In this document: positions 4,105 through 13,846 of the stretch, in pieces
Layout of the letters: every line of letters begins with the position of its first letter
Position numbering within the stretch: the first letter of the stretch is position 1
Virus record (IMG/VR): IMGVR_UViG_3300048109_000183
Coordinates: 1-23,207 of that record
Length of the DNA stretch: 23,207 nucleotides
Source: a virus
Direction: 5' to 3' (one strand)
Program-made: the position numbers and the translations under genes
Notes under the pieces: model-generated
The model's input: only the letters and a program-made list of their open reading frames with translations
Told to the model about the DNA's origin: nothing
Database searches by the model: none

Positions 4105-4112
4105 TATAAATA
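4105..4112 (+). promoter_or_regulatory. T4-type late promoter box TATAAATA
   Basis: The box is an exact match to the T4 late consensus, 4 bases after the T-run of the terminator. In T4 the box spans about -13 to -6, which would place the transcript start at about 4118, on an ATG of the downstream gene. Confidence 0.7.
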
Positions 4113-5273: not shown

Positions 5274-5281
5274 TATTTATA
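5274..5281 (-). promoter_or_regulatory. Minus-strand late promoter TATAAATA within an inverted repeat
   Basis: On the minus strand TATAAATACT precedes the GGGAG and TTG start of the 231-aa gene. The box overlaps an inverted repeat, CACTATA / TATAGTG (5266-5272 and 5278-5284). The box lies across the stop codon end of the Nudix gene. Confidence 0.7.
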
Positions 5282-5702
5282 GTGTATTAATTATGTTTCT
5301 AATCAGCTTTAATTTTTTTTTATTAAAGAGAGTTCGTCTAGTTCCAGGATGCAATGGTTTTGGGAAGTAGTTTATATTGACCCAACTATACCCCCCTGAT
5401 TCTTCGTTGAGTTTAGGTATAAATTCTTTTTCTACTATTATAACAAAAGTATAGTAACTAAATGTTTTATCCCTGGAATGATATTGGTCCAATGGATAAA
5501 CTTTTATTATTTCTGAAATAGGATCAAGTCCTATTTCTTCCTTTAATTCTCTTAGTAATCCTTGTGATACATTTTCATCTTGTTCTACTTTGCCACCAAA
5601 TAATCCCCAATTTCTGGAATAAGAACTATCCATTGAACGTTGTTGTAATAAAATTCTATTTGTATCTTTAGTGAGGATACATGCACCTGCCGCTTTAATC
5701 AT
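5277..5702 (-). CDS. Nudix hydrolase
   Basis: The 141-residue protein carries a complete Nudix box: GKVEQDE, then REL, KEE and IGL, matching G-x5-E-x7-REUxEExGU, with the catalytic and metal-binding glutamates present. It should hydrolyse a nucleoside diphosphate linked to another moiety, needing Mg2+. Possible substrates are oxidised (d)NTPs, ADP-ribose, NAD(H) or capped RNA; the box alone does not decide. The N-terminal strand (AAGACILT) and QQRS before the box are typical of MutT-like members. The ATG at 5702 shares its A with the TGA of gp15 (TGATG), so translation is coupled to gp15; an in-frame TTG one codon earlier is a less likely start. T4 also carries a Nudix gene, nudE, but this protein cannot be equated with it. 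Confidence 0.88.
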   Translation of the reverse strand: MIKAAGACILTKDTNRILLQQRSMDSSYSRNWGLFGGKVEQDENVSQGLLRELKEEIGLDPISEIIKVYPLDQYHSRDKTFSYYTFVIIVEKEFIPKLNEESGGYSWVNINYFPKPLHPGTRRTLFNKKKLKLIRNIINTL

Positions 5703-7093
5703 CAAGAACCTTCGTCTATTAATTCAAGTCTCCAATAACCACCCTCGTATATACCTTGGTATGTATCACTCCAAGATCCATCCTCAAATTTAAATTGTTG
5801 TAATGTAGTGGTATTCGTAACATATGCACGTCTATCAAATTCACTAGCATTGAATGCTATTACCCATTCACTGCCGTTATATTCTATAATATCACTGCTA
5901 TTAAAATCAGTACCAAAATAGTTAACTGTGTTATCTTCCATACCAACAGCACACAGATAACGTTGCCCCAGTTCTGGCATTGGGAATCCGTTAAAGCCAG
6001 GTCTTGACTTATTAGGATCAATAATTTTATCTATACTTGCTATTGTATTTGTCGGTAGTGTATCTCTATCAATGTTAAAGGACAATAGTGTCGGATCAGT
6101 AGTAGAAGAAATGGTGCCTATAACATCAGCATTAAGGTCTTCTAGTTCGCCGTGATATTTCAATCTCATGCGAGAAACCCCATCATGTAACATACCATAA
6201 TTATCAAGAACTTCTTCCCATGTTCTATCATTGTCCCAGTTACCGTTTTCTAATGCCTTAATGAATATATCTCCCTGTTCTTCATATACATTAACTGCAT
6301 AATTTCCAGGTGTTACCACAACACTAGAATGGCGTTCTAAGTCTCTAAAGAATTCAAATGCATCTGGATCATAATCTAGTGTATCTAAGTCATCATACTG
6401 ATAGATATTGTGAATAATATTCTTAATGACATTCTGTCTTGTTACTTGCGCAGGAGGGTTAATCCAAATAGGTATTTGAAAGAACATAGTAGCGATATCA
6501 ATTTGATCTTCGATGCCAGCTGGGATTCCTCTACTAGACCATTGAATGTCTGTAAGTTCAACTGTTGTAATAGTAGTCCAATCGATTGGATTATCGTTTT
6601 GTTGTATTTCAAGTGCTGGATTGAAAAGTACTAACATCTGTTCCATTAACTGTAGTTTCTGATCTGTATTAGATGTCCATACATCTACTTGCATATTAAG
6701 TAGATAAGGAACTGGCATAAGACGTCCTACGCTATACTTAGGACCTGTTGTATCAGTATATGAACTAGTCTCTGGATCCCAACGTCTTTCATTTACACTT
6801 ACACTATCTGAGAAGAATGGTTCTTGTACTCTTGCTCTATCTGGTTGAACACTCTGTATCCAACACGCAATGAAAGGAGCAGAGTTTACGATGTTTTCTG
6901 AATTGCCTTTGAGTATTGTGGCAGCCATACGAGATACATCACCATATCTTGCAGGCACACGAATGTAATAATCTGATACACCGTCATTCATTTTCTTTCC
7001 AGTCTTAACTGAAAAGCCACTAAACATACGTACAAATTGTAGAACGTATCTTCTTATTTGTTCATCATAAAAATGTGATTGCTTAACTGACAT
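5702..7093 (-). CDS. gp15: Tail completion / sheath stabiliser protein gp15, extended
   Basis: The N-terminal half matches the T4 gp15 family: SHFYDEQIRRYVLQFVRMFSGF, then RVPARYGDVSRMAATIL, then VPYLLNMQVDVWTSNTDQ and the conserved QMLVLFNPALEIQ. gp15 caps the tail and joins it to the neck, holding the sheath in the extended state. At 463 residues it is much longer than T4 gp15 (about 270). The extra C-terminal 200 residues contain aromatic bead motifs (IIEYNGSEWVIAFN, FKFEDGSWSD, IYEGGYWRLEL) also seen in gp14 and gp18 here. The ATG overlaps the stop of gp14 (TAATG), so the two are translated together. It is on the strand opposite to gp13, gp18 and gp19. Confidence 0.85.
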   Translation of the reverse strand: MSVKQSHFYDEQIRRYVLQFVRMFSGFSVKTGKKMNDGVSDYYIRVPARYGDVSRMAATILKGNSENIVNSAPFIACWIQSVQPDRARVQEPFFSDSVSVNERRWDPETSSYTDTTGPKYSVGRLMPVPYLLNMQVDVWTSNTDQKLQLMEQMLVLFNPALEIQQNDNPIDWTTITTVELTDIQWSSRGIPAGIEDQIDIATMFFQIPIWINPPAQVTRQNVIKNIIHNIYQYDDLDTLDYDPDAFEFFRDLERHSSVVVTPGNYAVNVYEEQGDIFIKALENGNWDNDRTWEEVLDNYGMLHDGVSRMRLKYHGELEDLNADVIGTISSTTDPTLLSFNIDRDTLPTNTIASIDKIIDPNKSRPGFNGFPMPELGQRYLCAVGMEDNTVNYFGTDFNSSDIIEYNGSEWVIAFNASEFDRRAYVTNTTTLQQFKFEDGSWSDTYQGIYEGGYWRLELIDEGS

Positions 7094-8091
7094 TATTCAT
7101 CCACCTTAGGTCTAACTGCTTTTGAAAGATTGACTTTGGACGTGACCTCTGTTCCATCATCAAGTACAACTTTGCCATCGTTGTTAATAAACTTATGATG
7201 TAGAGCATGACCAACTTCCCAGGCACCATCATCGTCTTCTATCTTATACCACCTGTTGTCTCTGTATTGAAATAATCTAGCAGGATTATAATCAATGCGT
7301 AAGAAGTATGAATTATCATCTGGATACATTGGAAATTTAGAACCGCTTTCTACAGTTGCATAGTCAACATCATCTGGGTGGTTCGCCTGTTCAGCATATT
7401 GTAGATTGTTTGTTCTGTAGTCATAATACTTACCTGGTACATTTTCTTGTGCTTCTTCTACGATAGCATCATTGATTTGAAGTTCTTTGTTATATGTAGA
7501 AAGAATGTTTTTCAAATCGTCGGCTTCTTCACCCGTGCCAAAGATATCTGAATATTCTTGTGTATCTTGTAGTTGCTTACAGCGTATTCTCCAAATATGA
7601 GGCCACCATCCGGGATCGAAGCCTTCACTTGCTTTTGATCCCTCTTGTACAACCCAATATTGATTTACTGCTGCGGCATCTTCATCTAGTAGTAAGTCGT
7701 CCCGCATATGTGGTAATTCTATAACATCTCCTGTCATAAGTTTACGACCTAGTCGTTCTACCATATCATTGATATGTACAGTAAAGATGTTTTGATCTGA
7801 TCCTAAAAACATGCCAAATTGAGACAAGTCAAAGTCTTGGTCGCTTACTGTGTAAGCACCACGTAATTCGAAAATGGTTGTCTCATAACGTCTATCACGA
7901 TTCTCCATGAATAGCAAATCCTGAATAGGAGGGTTTGCCGGATCATAATTTTCGTCACTTTCGTCAACTGAACCTATATATTTGTGAACCAATAACGCAG
8001 TGCCACCATGCTCAAAATGAGCCTTTACCATCTTGTCGATGAATTTGTAGTCATTACCTTTGCGTGGGTTCCATAAACTTAATCTTGGCAT
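7093..8091 (-). CDS. gp14: Neck protein gp14
   Basis: The 332-residue protein resembles the marine T4-like gp14 family: an N-terminal region with a HGGTALLVHKYIGS strand, RDRRYETTIFELRG, FDLSQFGMFLGSDQNIFTVHIND, and the characteristic GDVIELPHMRDDL followed by NQYWVVQEGSKASEGF. gp14 forms the neck with gp13 and is needed to join heads to tails. The C-terminal 100 residues include a YFLRIDYNPARLFQYRDNRW motif shared with related marine gp14 proteins. It starts at an ATG behind AAGGAA and is led by a minus-strand late promoter. It is separated from gp13 by four other genes and lies on the opposite strand. Confidence 0.8.
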   Translation of the reverse strand: MPRLSLWNPRKGNDYKFIDKMVKAHFEHGGTALLVHKYIGSVDESDENYDPANPPIQDLLFMENRDRRYETTIFELRGAYTVSDQDFDLSQFGMFLGSDQNIFTVHINDMVERLGRKLMTGDVIELPHMRDDLLLDEDAAAVNQYWVVQEGSKASEGFDPGWWPHIWRIRCKQLQDTQEYSDIFGTGEEADDLKNILSTYNKELQINDAIVEEAQENVPGKYYDYRTNNLQYAEQANHPDDVDYATVESGSKFPMYPDDNSYFLRIDYNPARLFQYRDNRWYKIEDDDGAWEVGHALHHKFINNDGKVVLDDGTEVTSKVNLSKAVRPKVDE

Positions 8092-8101
8092 GTTTTTTTC
8101 C

Positions 8102-8130
8102 TTGACTTTATACTGTATTTATCTTATAGT
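8102..8130 (+). promoter_or_regulatory. Sigma70-like promoter for the oxygenase gene
   Basis: TTGACT at 8102-8107 is followed after 17 bases by TATAGT at 8125-8130, five of six matches in each box. The expected start is near 8137, 18 bases before the ATG and just before a GGAG. It overlaps the minus-strand late promoter for gp14. Confidence 0.6.
8115..8123 (-). promoter_or_regulatory. Minus-strand late promoter GATAAATAC for gp14-gp15-Nudix
   Basis: The minus strand reads GATAAATAC 24 bases upstream of the gp14 ATG. It sits within the spacer of the divergent sigma70-like promoter on the plus strand. Confidence 0.75.
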
Positions 8131-8154
8131 GTAGATAACGTATGGAGAAAATTA

Positions 8155-8841
8155 ATGAATTTTGACGGAACAGCAGTTTTACGCAGTGTAATAAATCCAA
8201 CAACAATTTCACAGTTCAAATTATGGGCTACAAACCCAGAGAGATATCACCGTGGTAATGGTGTAGATGGAAACTATTATAGTGAGCATGATGGTGAAAG
8301 AGAATATGATGTGTGGTGGACTACTCAGCCTCCTAGAGAAATGTGGGAACCTCTTGTTTGGATGTTGTCTTCGTCTATTAATCATTTATTCGGTCATCAA
8401 AAGTGGGACATCCATGTAGTTGATTGTATCACCACAAGACCTAGTTCAAGCAAAGTGTATGCTCACATTGACACTCCCTATAGATTTGAAGAATTTTCAA
8501 AAGTAGATGAAACTCTTGGTGTGCAGATTATTATTCCTCTTGATACATTTACATTAGAGAATGGAGCAACTGCATATCTACCAGGATCATATAGAGAACA
8601 AATAGATTATAACGATTTAGAAAAAAACCGTGATCATTATAATGATAGATTACTTACTGAAGGACAGCAGTTTTTGTCAACTCCTGGTGATGTTTTGATG
8701 TATGATGGACGTACTCTACACTCAACAATGCCAAACAATTCAGATAAATTTCGTTCAGCACTTCTTATAAATGCTTTAAAATCTGATATTATTCAACGTG
8801 TACAGGAACTTGATGAAAATACAGATTTTGTTAAAAAGTAG
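8155..8841 (+). CDS. 2-oxoglutarate/Fe(II) dioxygenase, PhyH-like
   Basis: The 228-residue protein has the double-stranded beta-helix signature of phytanoyl-CoA dioxygenase-like enzymes. The iron ligands are H104 and D106 in YAHIDTPYR and H189 in DGRTLHS. R200, eleven residues after the distal histidine, is placed to bind 2-oxoglutarate. The core also shows ENGATAYLPGSY and STPGDVLMYDGR, typical of the family. It should couple oxidation of an organic substrate to decarboxylation of 2-oxoglutarate; the substrate is not predictable. Such oxygenases are common in marine T4-like phages, with roles proposed in nucleotide, protein or metabolite modification. It starts at ATG behind GGAG and has a sigma70-like promoter, suggesting earlier expression than the virion genes. 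Confidence 0.85.
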   Translation: MNFDGTAVLRSVINPTTISQFKLWATNPERYHRGNGVDGNYYSEHDGEREYDVWWTTQPPREMWEPLVWMLSSSINHLFGHQKWDIHVVDCITTRPSSSKVYAHIDTPYRFEEFSKVDETLGVQIIIPLDTFTLENGATAYLPGSYREQIDYNDLEKNRDHYNDRLLTEGQQFLSTPGDVLMYDGRTLHSTMPNNSDKFRSALLINALKSDIIQRVQELDENTDFVKK

Positions 8842-12118: not shown

Positions 12119-12535
12119 ATGAAAATAACACACATAACAAGTAAGATACCAGAATTTTGTATGAGTCATTGGCTCTTACGCATACCATTAGCTATTGTAT
12201 TTCTACAACAAGGTCTCGCTAAGTGGCCTATTGATATAGATTCCGCAACATCATTTGGACTTCCATTATTAGTCTGGACGTTTGTTGTATTGGGCGAGAT
12301 AGGATCTGGAGTAGGATTATTCGTCGGCGGCTTATTAGCAGGATTCAAAAACACAATAAAAGAATTCGGAGATGTGATTACTCGCTTCAGTGGAATCACA
12401 ATTTGTTCAATCATGACAGGTGTTATTTGGATCGGTGAACCGGATAGTTTCTGGGATGTAATATTATATGATAACTTCCATGTCATGTTATGGGTAGGTG
12501 GTATGTTCTTTGCTTTAAGAGGTAATCGCACATGA
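12119..12535 (+). CDS. DoxX-like four-helix membrane protein
   Basis: The 138-residue protein has four predicted transmembrane helices at about residues 18-36, 47-70, 88-106 and 117-134. The first helix region (LLRIPLAIVFLQQGLAKW) and the second (VLGEIGSGVGLFVGGLLAG) have the spacing and Gly/Glu features of the DoxX/DoxD family, whose members include subunits of thiosulfate:quinone oxidoreductase and redox-linked membrane proteins of unknown role. It would lie in the inner membrane. No clear Shine-Dalgarno precedes the ATG; a GATAAGTA at 12106-12113 is one mismatch from the late box and could be a weak promoter. The stop overlaps the start of the 55-aa gene (ATGA). Its place directly before a pseudoazurin supports a redox role but does not prove it. 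Confidence 0.65.
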   Translation: MKITHITSKIPEFCMSHWLLRIPLAIVFLQQGLAKWPIDIDSATSFGLPLLVWTFVVLGEIGSGVGLFVGGLLAGFKNTIKEFGDVITRFSGITICSIMTGVIWIGEPDSFWDVILYDNFHVMLWVGGMFFALRGNRT

Positions 12536-12699
12536 TTAGGTTATTAGCGGGATTATTTAGAAAAAGCAAAGAAACAAAACAAGAAGAATTTAATCCTAGA
12601 ATCCGTATCAATTCAGAAAATATGACAGACGTTGAAAAGATGGATGCTGGTTTTAATGGCAAGACTTATACTAACAACGGTATCGAAACAGATTTTTAA
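12532..12699 (+). CDS. Small hypothetical protein (55 aa)
   Basis: The start overlaps the DoxX-like stop by ATGA. The N-terminus (MIRLLAGLFRKSK) is a short amphipathic, membrane-interacting type helix; the rest is polar (ETKQEEFNPRIRIN) and ends NGIETDF. No family is recognised. Its coupling to the DoxX-like gene suggests it is translated with, and may associate with, that membrane protein. Confidence 0.6.
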   Translation: MIRLLAGLFRKSKETKQEEFNPRIRINSENMTDVEKMDAGFNGKTYTNNGIETDF

Positions 12700-12708
12700 T
12701 TTAATTAC

Positions 12709-12737
12709 TTGACAAACGATTTACAATACTATATTAT
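12709..12737 (+). promoter_or_regulatory. Near-consensus sigma70 promoter for the pseudoazurin cassette
   Basis: TTGACA at 12709-12714 (perfect -35) is followed after 17 bases by TATTAT at 12732-12737. An AT-rich stretch lies upstream and the predicted start is about 12744, 24 bases before the ATG. AAAGGAA serves as the ribosome binding site. No late box is nearby. Confidence 0.8.
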
Positions 12738-12767
12738 ATAGTATAGTTAACACAAAGGAAATGACTA

Positions 12768-13193
12768 ATGAAAAATTTAATCGTTGCAGGAATCGTTGCA
12801 CTATTTGCAACGAATGCATATGCAGAAGATACAACAGTAGAAATGTTGAACAAGCGTGATGATGGCGCTAAGATGGTATACAGTGAAGATATCACACGTA
12901 TTGACGTAGGTGATACAGTAACATGGGTACCAACATCAAAAGGCCACAATGTAGAATTCATTGCAGGCCCAGACGGTTGGAAAGCACCAAAGAAATCAAA
13001 ACTTAACAAAGAAGTTGCAATTACATTTGACGCACCAGGCGTATATCTATATCAGTGTTCCCCACACAAGTCAATGGGTATGATTGCCATTGTAGTTGTA
13101 GGTAAGCCAGAAGAAGTAAAGGATCGTTTCAAGGATGTGAAAGTACGTGGCAAGTCAAAGAAAAAACTAAAGGCATTGTTGGCTGACCTATGA
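12768..13193 (+). CDS. Pseudoazurin, periplasmic blue copper electron carrier
   Basis: The 141-residue protein has a signal peptide of about 19 residues ending NAYA before EDTTVEM. The mature part is a type 1 copper protein with ligands H60 (KGHNVEF), C97 and H100 (YQCSPH) and M105 (HKSMGM); the C-x2-H-x4-M spacing and the GDTVTWVP and VEMLNKR strands match pseudoazurins. Pseudoazurins are soluble periplasmic proteins that pass one electron from the cytochrome bc1 region to acceptors such as nitrite reductase, nitrous oxide reductase or cytochrome c oxidase/peroxidase. The length and C-terminal helices (KSKKKLKALLADL) agree with a complete, functional protein. It is driven by a strong sigma70-like promoter and is followed by coupled tiny genes. 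Codon use and gene spacing match its phage neighbours, so it appears long resident. Cyanophages carry plastocyanin, a related idea; a pseudoazurin in a T4-like phage is unusual to my knowledge. Confidence 0.93.
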   Translation: MKNLIVAGIVALFATNAYAEDTTVEMLNKRDDGAKMVYSEDITRIDVGDTVTWVPTSKGHNVEFIAGPDGWKAPKKSKLNKEVAITFDAPGVYLYQCSPHKSMGMIAIVVVGKPEEVKDRFKDVKVRGKSKKKLKALLADL

Positions 13194-13366
13194 GTGATAA
13201 AACTTATTATTGTACAACAAAAGGCCTAGGCTGGGCATTCTTAATTATTGTTCTTATGATAACAGCCTTGCCTGTGCTAATGACACTGGCAATGGTTGGT
13301 CCTGAAGACTATGCACGTTATTGTAATCTAGCAGCACATTTGCCTTGCTTTGGTATTGGTAAATGA
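13190..13366 (+). CDS. Small single-span membrane protein (58 aa)
   Basis: The ATG overlaps the pseudoazurin stop (ATGA), so translation is coupled. The N-terminal 12 residues are polar (SDKTYYCTTKG) and one hydrophobic helix spans about residues 14-36. The 20-residue C-terminal tail contains C45 and C53 (ARYCNLAAHLPCF), which could form a disulphide or bind a metal if exported. No family is recognised. Next to pseudoazurin it might be a membrane docking or small respiratory-complex subunit, but that is inference. Confidence 0.7.
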   Translation: MSDKTYYCTTKGLGWAFLIIVLMITALPVLMTLAMVGPEDYARYCNLAAHLPCFGIGK

Positions 13367-13560
13367 GTAAGGTAAAAAAAGACGCACAGAAGCAAGCTGA
13401 AGTCGCATTTGACGGTTTCATCTTGTGGAGCAAACGTACAACGTATGCCGCTATTGCGTTTTTGTTGATTGTTGCAAGTTGCAACTTTGGTGTTGAAAAA
13501 GGTCAGTACCCTGGATATAACGGCGAACAATATAGTCCATCAGGATTGAGTACAGACTAA
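13363..13560 (+). CDS. Small membrane protein with lipobox-like site (65 aa)
   Basis: The start overlaps the previous stop (ATGA). A basic N-terminus of about 27 residues is followed by a hydrophobic stretch (TYAAIAFLLIVASC) that ends in VASC, a good lipobox with C40 as the lipidation site. The remaining 25 residues are polar (NFGVEKGQYPGYNGEQYS). The long N-terminal region before the hydrophobic part is atypical for a lipoprotein, so a plain single-span membrane protein is the alternative. No family is recognised. Confidence 0.65.
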   Translation: MSKVKKDAQKQAEVAFDGFILWSKRTTYAAIAFLLIVASCNFGVEKGQYPGYNGEQYSPSGLSTD

Positions 13561-13667
13561 TGCATGGCGACAGAGGCAATCCTAAGATAGTTATATTAAT
13601 GATTGCCTTGTGCGTAGTATTACATGTCGTAGTAATACCAATTTGGATGTGGAGTCTAGGATTATGA
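13560..13667 (+). CDS. Tiny membrane protein (35 aa)
   Basis: The frame opens with the ATG of a TAATG overlap with the previous stop, and closes with an ATGA overlap with the next gene, which strongly suggests a real coding unit. Residues 10-32 are a single hydrophobic helix (VILMIALCVVLHVVVIPIW) after a short polar N-terminus (HGDRGNPK). Size is in the range of small accessory subunits of membrane complexes. Function unknown. Confidence 0.6.
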   Translation: MHGDRGNPKIVILMIALCVVLHVVVIPIWMWSLGL

Positions 13668-13846
13668 AACCAAATAACCAATTTAAACTTGATGTGAATG
13701 ATATAGCAATTATTGAAAATGCACTCATGCTATTGCAGCGTGATGCTGATCATCAAATTACTAAAAAGGAAATTGTAAATATTTTAGCAAAATTATATCA
13801 TCAAAAGAATTGGTATCGTCCTAAGGAAGGATACGTTAGTGGCTAA
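13664..13846 (+). CDS. Small soluble hypothetical protein (60 aa)
   Basis: The ATG at 13664 overlaps the previous stop (ATGA) and is preferred over an in-frame ATG 18 codons upstream, which would lie inside the tiny membrane gene. The product is helical (DVNDIAIIENALMLLQRDADHQITKKEIVNILAKL), without a membrane segment. It ends the coupled chain that starts with pseudoazurin. No family is recognised. Confidence 0.65.
   Translation: MKPNNQFKLDVNDIAIIENALMLLQRDADHQITKKEIVNILAKLYHQKNWYRPKEGYVSG

Follow-up and report, generated by a model that had tools for sequence, protein, structure and literature searches.

A phage-borne pseudoazurin and its gene cassette: a proposed link to the aa3 oxidase of the host

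Introduction

Cyanophage photosynthesis is the only well-known case in which viruses steer electron transport. In the stretch of DNA analyzed here (the window: an IMG/VR record of 23,207 bases), an apparent pseudoazurin gene lies among the neck and sheath genes of a phage. The locus raises three questions: whether the protein is a pseudoazurin, whether the gene truly belongs to the phage, and to which acceptor of the host the carrier would deliver electrons. The features of the locus are collected in Table 1.

Table 1. Features of the pseudoazurin locus, with positions in the window
Feature	Position	Strand	Basis
Head-tail adaptor Ad2 (neck), upstream phage context	11304..12056	+	phrog_211; nearest, jumbo Pseudomonas phages
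DoxX-family membrane protein, 138 aa	12119..12535	+	PF07681; relatives on 488 viral stretches
55-aa protein in the DoxX–pseudoazurin gap; start overlaps DoxX stop	12532..12699	+	relatives in L043, L079, L081
Likely promoter TTGACA-N17-TATTAT (alternatively, alphaproteobacterial TTGAC-N-CTATAT)	12709..12737	+	motif in 10/48 dissimilar upstream regions
Inverted repeat TTTACAATACTATAT-T-ATATAGTATAGTTAA that covers the -10 box; candidate operator	12720..12750		arms of 15 nt, 87% complementary, 1-nt spacer
Pseudoazurin, 141 aa	12768..13193	+	TIGR02375 over cut-off; PF00127; AF2 model and PDB matches
F3, 58 aa, one TM helix, conserved cysteines; ATG overlaps pseudoazurin stop (ATGA)	13190..13366	+	in most cassette loci
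SU4, 65-aa remote homolog of aa3 subunit IV; ATG overlaps F3 stop (ATGA)	13363..13560	+	PF07835 best match
78-aa protein, recurrent near the cassette	13610..13846	+	neighbour clustering
Tail sheath, downstream phage context	14868..17558	+	phrog_10581, E 9e-239; nearest, PA5oct-like jumbo phages, ~40% identity

Identity and fold of the pseudoazurin

The protein scores 112.2 bits with the pseudoazurin equivalog TIGR02375 (cut-off, 109.85) and 59.7 bits with PF00127. With the plastocyanin equivalog TIGR02656, the score is 36.3 bits against a cut-off of 87.85, and it falls far under the cut-off of each of the amicyanin, halocyanin, and plastocyanin models of NCBIfam. The type 1 copper ligands are H60, C97, H100, and M105, with the spacing CxPHxxxxM. 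They are invariant in two pseudoazurin alignments (A1 and A6), and none of the four is lost in any of the 80 distinct phage sequences, as expected from a preliminary description of this DNA, which had pointed to four correctly spaced ligands and to an export signal. The latter, as read from the sequence, is a predicted Sec-type signal at residues ~1–19 (MKNLIVAGIVALFATNAYA), ending in AYA. With those 19 residues removed, C97, H100, and M105 become C78, H81, and M86 of the mature chain, in line with the usual pseudoazurin numbering.

The closest solved structures by sequence are pseudoazurins, with that of Sinorhizobium at the top (3tu6, E 1e-26). The AlphaFold2 model (pLDDT 87.8, pTM 0.80) superposes on 3tu6 with a Z of 21.5 and an rmsd of 1.2 Å over 121 residues, spanning residues 19–141, and has both the cupredoxin fold and the C-terminal extension of pseudoazurins. 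In a structure search with the model, the top 26 PDB entries are all pseudoazurins (Z 18.4–21.5) and plastocyanins come next (Z 12.8). The structure prediction proposed in the preliminary description thus agrees with it, and sequence and model together identify the gene as that of a pseudoazurin, with export predicted from the signal. Between phage copies, dN is 0.04–0.20 and dS 0.5–1.5 (dN/dS about 0.03–0.2), values that indicate purifying selection.

Phage context and bacterial relatives

Upstream of the pseudoazurin occur Ad2 and further virion genes; downstream follow genes for a dNMP kinase, the tail sheath, the tube, and head closure. The sheath and the adaptor match best those of jumbo phages (PA5oct group, ~40–44%, then CBB and PBECO4), and the preliminary label "T4-like" therefore holds in the wide sense only. 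In the narrow sense it is not supported: the nearest structural genes are those of jumbo phages PA5oct, PBECO4, and CBB, and, judged by neck and sheath, the phage is of the jumbo type (PA5oct/PBECO4-like) and not an ordinary T4-like phage. The region is otherwise on the plus strand, but it is interrupted by a minus-strand block (5277–8091) that encodes a virion structural protein, a NUDIX hydrolase, and a protein resembling a tail sheath stabiliser.

The same region is present in a second contig (L002), with 14 genes at 100% identity, and the same neck-cassette-sheath arrangement occurs at lower identity in L009–L012, L079, L081, and L201. Relatives of the pseudoazurin are encoded on 338 viral stretches, but tblastn (E 1e-3) finds none in 50,697 GenBank phage records; for DoxX and SU4, the search of those records is also empty.

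The bacterial relatives belong to marine Alphaproteobacteria (Rhodobacterales at 70–72% identity, OCS116, Pelagibacterales, and others). A quick tree, built on 119 columns and with many forks unresolved, contains 83 phage sequences, which cluster with 4 label changes against 42.8 after shuffling. The cluster sits inside the clade of pelagic-alphaproteobacterial pseudoazurins (SH-aLRT 99), which answers the call for a phylogeny against bacterial homologs; 30 classical Rhodobacteraceae pseudoazurins fall apart from it, as a sister set. Bacterial contamination or a chimeric assembly, the condition under which the preliminary description would have failed, might be suspected from relatives as close as 72%, but it is refuted by the independent contigs and by the clustering in the tree, and has practically no chance of being right. 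The pseudoazurin is a genuine phage gene. Three contigs are binned in bacterial MAGs (L082, L090, and L101, in Muricauda, Neomarinimicrobiota, and Rhodobacteraceae), yet their genes are phage-like; the contig of L090 is 335 kb long and carries a pseudoazurin and two copies of F4 (see below).

In 20 bacterial genomes with a pelagic-clade pseudoazurin, mostly incomplete assemblies, CtaD (aa3) occurs in 17, and neither ccoN (cbb3) nor NirK over cut-off occurs in any. DUF1127-type neighbours in many phage loci suggest alphaproteobacterial hosts, and we infer such a host for the phage of the window as well. These DUF1127 proteins recur near the cassette together with small "RARAAxELxRxGYxxEA" proteins (L154, L162, L211, and >60 loci), as in alphaproteobacterial genomes.

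Promoter and upstream elements

The -35 box TTGACA (12709–12714) and the -10 box TATTAT (12732–12737) are separated by 17 nt and agree with the consensus at 11 of 12 positions. This is the joint-best of 29 sigma70-like matches between 10 and 18.5 kb, but their number is no more than chance (31.8 in shuffles). The comparison between loci is more telling. Of 48 dissimilar regions upstream of the pseudoazurin, 10 contain TTGAC-N14..20-CTATAT, where shuffles give 0.02, with the reservation that the pattern was picked post hoc, after looking at the sequences, and that only this comparative test is significant. A host-type promoter, as originally proposed, is therefore likely. Operator-like inverted repeats occur upstream of the pseudoazurin in L042, L044, and L134 as well, over the -35 (TTGACC..GGTCAA) or the -10 boxes.

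The promoter had also been set apart from the late boxes of the structural genes. The exact T4 late box TATAAATA is found 44 bp upstream of the sheath gene (14824+). It occurs elsewhere only at 4105+ and 5281-, and, because there are just these three sites, the mention of late boxes for the structural genes is correct only in part.

A cassette that recurs in viral contigs

The pseudoazurin does not stand alone. It is a member of a travelling cassette, missed in the preliminary description, that is present in hundreds of viral contigs and whose genes are for the most part direct neighbours. On neighbour clustering, it travels with DoxX, SU4 (a 65–69-aa TM protein), F3 (a 58-aa TM protein), and, often, F4 (a two-TM protein that is missing from the window). 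In the window, pseudoazurin, F3, and SU4 are joined by overlapping ATGA start/stops. The DoxX protein scores 25.3 bits with PF07681 (cut-off, 23.6); its structure model is poor (pLDDT 48.9). Neither the F3 nor the DoxX profile has convincing relatives in the PDB by sequence.

The association was recounted with six-frame HMM searches, in the 45 pseudoazurin loci that are flanked on both sides by 2.5 kb or more. Within 2.5 kb, DoxX is present in 31, SU4 in 29, F3 in 25, and F4 in 21, and all of them are on the strand of the pseudoazurin. Starting from DoxX, pseudoazurin is found in 31 of 39 loci and SU4 in 26 of 39. The commonest order is F4-F3-SU4-PAZ-DoxX (PAZ, pseudoazurin), with 57 loci; the locus sets overlap and include near-duplicate contigs. 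Relatives of SU4 and of DoxX occur on 476 and 488 viral stretches, respectively.

The search for the same position in other viral contigs gave a divided answer: the neck-sheath location is seen in the clade of the window only, and other loci are placed elsewhere. In 11 loci, the cassette adjoins neck/sheath genes of the jumbo type; in 65, its neighbours are T4-like polymerase or clamp-loader genes. The two sets do not overlap, and the cassette therefore moves from one phage lineage to another. No operon that unites pseudoazurin, DoxX, and subunit IV is present in the bacterial contigs read, and the grouping thus looks phage-made.

F4 is the only member of the cassette with a match in a cultured phage, the OM43 phage Melnitz. 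F4 (L060:8910-9197 and other copies) ends in a C-terminal GGEHE and shares 83% identity with a Melnitz protein annotated as hypothetical. A shorter bacterial homolog of F4 adjoins a cytochrome c gene (L123, L124). Near the cassette, 3′ of the clamp-loader gene, there is in some contigs a 4Fe-4S ferredoxin-like ORF (L187:7777-8118, L188–L190, L199), possibly a further electron carrier.

SU4 and subunit IV of aa3 oxidases

A subunit IV of aa3 oxidases was suspected from the EKTFxGF motif of SU4 before the profile tests. PF07835 is the best Pfam match, with an E of 0.0028 for the protein of the window and 6.6e-4 for a relative. The scores (18.2 and 20.3 bits) are under the gathering cut-off of 22, and SU4 is therefore called here a homolog, or "subunit-IV-like," and not filed as a member of the family. 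Against the PDB, the SU4 family profile gives five matches, all of them aa3 subunit IV (E 0.07–1.5). In bacterial genomes, the significant matches of the SU4 profile (A2) are canonical subunit IV, in OCS116 beside pntA; in 61 Rhodobacteraceae genomes, at E 0.1, canonical subunit IV (MAEHKHGxMDxxEQEKTFxGF...) makes up 14 of 16 matches. An hhalign comparison of SU4 with subunit IV gives 96.3%. By this profile similarity to genuine subunit IV, SU4 is a remote homolog of subunit IV of the aa3 cytochrome c oxidase.

After the helix, SU4 has a C-terminal extension of ~25 aa that is conserved across phages (CNxGVE...YxG..Y.P). From the positive-inside charge, this extra tail is probably periplasmic. 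On the other hand, the helix ends in VASC, which resembles a lipobox, and SU4 could be a small lipoprotein instead.

Exchange of the carrier and haem genes

Four contigs (L209, L211, L212, and L213) lack pseudoazurin, and in them the start of a class I cytochrome c overlaps the stop of DoxX. This cytochrome (L211:6399-6764) bears a signal and scores 40.4 bits with PF00034. As judged from its place and its sequence, a class I cytochrome c fills the carrier slot in one lineage. In Paracoccus, the nitrite reductase can take electrons from either pseudoazurin or cytochrome c550 (PMC6872814). All seven SU4 contigs without pseudoazurin (L154, at 7127–8837, and L159–L164) have, 3′ of SU4, genes for hemF (coproporphyrinogen oxidase) and hemC (porphobilinogen deaminase), a pair known from "deep ecotype" pelagimyophages (PMC7029224).

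A proposed role in host respiration and its alternatives

We consider it probable that the genes form a phage respiratory cassette, in which the pseudoazurin serves as periplasmic carrier for the aa3 oxidase of the host during infection, together with DoxX and the subunit-IV-like protein. After infection, the alphaproteobacterial sigma70-like host-type promoter would drive pseudoazurin-F3-SU4. The pseudoazurin would be exported, load copper, take electrons from the bc1 complex, and pass them to the aa3 oxidase, so supplementing or replacing cytochrome c with no need for haem or for the Ccm export machinery. SU4 would join or cap the oxidase, and its extra tail would perhaps aid the docking of the carrier. 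The benefit would lie in sustained, or re-tuned, oxygen respiration and ATP supply during host gene shutdown. A respiratory role had been foreseen with either a terminal oxidase or a nitrogen oxide reductase as acceptor. The first is favoured because of the subunit-IV-like neighbour, the exchange with cytochrome c, and the oxidase inventory of the related bacteria; for the second, the inventory offers no NirK.

The cassette could, on the contrary, divert or inhibit respiration, with SU4 and the carrier acting as decoys. These would displace cytochrome c from the oxidase or slow the enzyme, perhaps in order to shift the redox state or to block a competing phage. SU4 is indeed a modified and extended host subunit rather than a copy, and cyanophages are thought to re-route, and not only to maintain, electron flow. 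We regard such a decoy as unlikely, since the carrier is intact and under purifying selection, is replaced by cytochrome c and not lost, and is accompanied on related contigs by haem-synthesis genes that suggest supply.

Among the neighbours of the pseudoazurin, DoxX is the most frequent (31 of 45 loci), and DoxX occurs in thiosulfate:quinone oxidoreductase. The carrier and the phage DoxX might thus work in sulfur or quinone oxidation, with an indirect link to the oxidase. This is rather improbable: the DoxX family is broad, no DoxD/TQO partner is seen in the loci read (a non-exhaustive set), and SU4 is also present in 29 of the 45 loci.

What speaks against the aa3 oxidase as acceptor is that classical pseudoazurins pass their electrons to reductases of nitrite and NO; the pseudoazurin of Paracoccus is a donor to the cd1 nitrite reductase and to NorC (PMC6872814), and the classical Rhodobacteraceae pseudoazurins are the sister set of the pelagic clade. 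The phage protein might then feed nitrogen-oxide reductases (NirK, NirS, cNor, NosZ) and support denitrification in the infected host. However, the neighbour of the pseudoazurin is a homolog of an oxidase subunit, and in the clade genomes NirK (0/20), the one of these reductases covered by the search, contrasts with aa3 (17/20). The NirK type is disfavoured by that absence, and denitrification as a whole is quite unlikely. Lastly, the pseudoazurin might not carry electrons but act in the periplasm as a copper buffer or stress protein, for the protection of the infected cell. Such a role would suit a protein that is copper-binding by sequence, but with the mature pseudoazurin fold and ligand spacing conserved, and with its slot occupied elsewhere by a haem protein, it has very little probability.

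Beyond service to the aa3 oxidase, the cassette may be an exchangeable "respiration module" present in several unrelated marine phage lineages, where a carrier (pseudoazurin or cytochrome c) and an extended subunit IV that recruits it, both made by the phage, would re-equip the aa3 oxidase of heterotrophic bacterioplankton and form with it a phage-specific supercomplex. We offer this extension tentatively and hold it to be possible but doubtful.

Significance and comparison with known systems

If the proposal is right, phages of pelagic Alphaproteobacteria steer aerobic respiration as cyanophages steer photosynthesis, by means of a modified subunit of the oxidase and of an exchangeable carrier (a copper or a haem protein). 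The cassette, which is spread over large groups of uncultured marine viruses of bacteria, would be the counterpart, in viruses of heterotrophs, of the photosynthesis genes of cyanobacterial viruses. With hundreds of viral contigs and none among the GenBank phage records, infected cells could shape marine oxygen use and the demand for copper and iron. In the open-licence PMC literature, we found no paper on a phage pseudoazurin or DoxX as an AMG. BFVD contains no viral pseudoazurin; its nearest phage cupredoxin is the plastocyanin of Synechococcus phage S-WAM1 (28% identity).

With the pseudoazurins of Alphaproteobacteria (TIGR02375; PDB 3tu6, 1adw, 1bqk), the phage protein shares the fold, the four ligands, the export signal, and the C-terminal helix. 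It differs in being phage-borne and embedded in a cassette, in belonging to a separate pelagic clade, and in its identity to the crystal structures (38–46%). Like subunit IV of alphaproteobacterial aa3 oxidases (PF07835, COX4_pro_2), SU4 has the EKTFxGF motif and a single TM helix; unlike it, SU4 carries the conserved extra C-terminal tail, scores under the Pfam cut-off, and has no catalytic oxidase subunits beside it in the loci read. The haem and tetrapyrrole AMGs of phages (vAlaS, PMC11480375; hemF/hemC, PMC7029224) are similar in their proposed support of respiratory haem proteins, and hemF-hemC is present in the seven SU4 contigs. By term searches, the main texts of both papers are without plastocyanin or DoxX, and that of PMC7029224 is also without cytochrome or azurin. 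The plastocyanin PetE of cyanophages (phrog_515) is likewise a phage-borne type 1 copper carrier that serves host electron transport. The match to it is remote (phrog_515, E 8e-8), and there the setting is photosynthesis in cyanobacterial hosts, whereas here it would be respiration in hosts that are probably Alphaproteobacteria.
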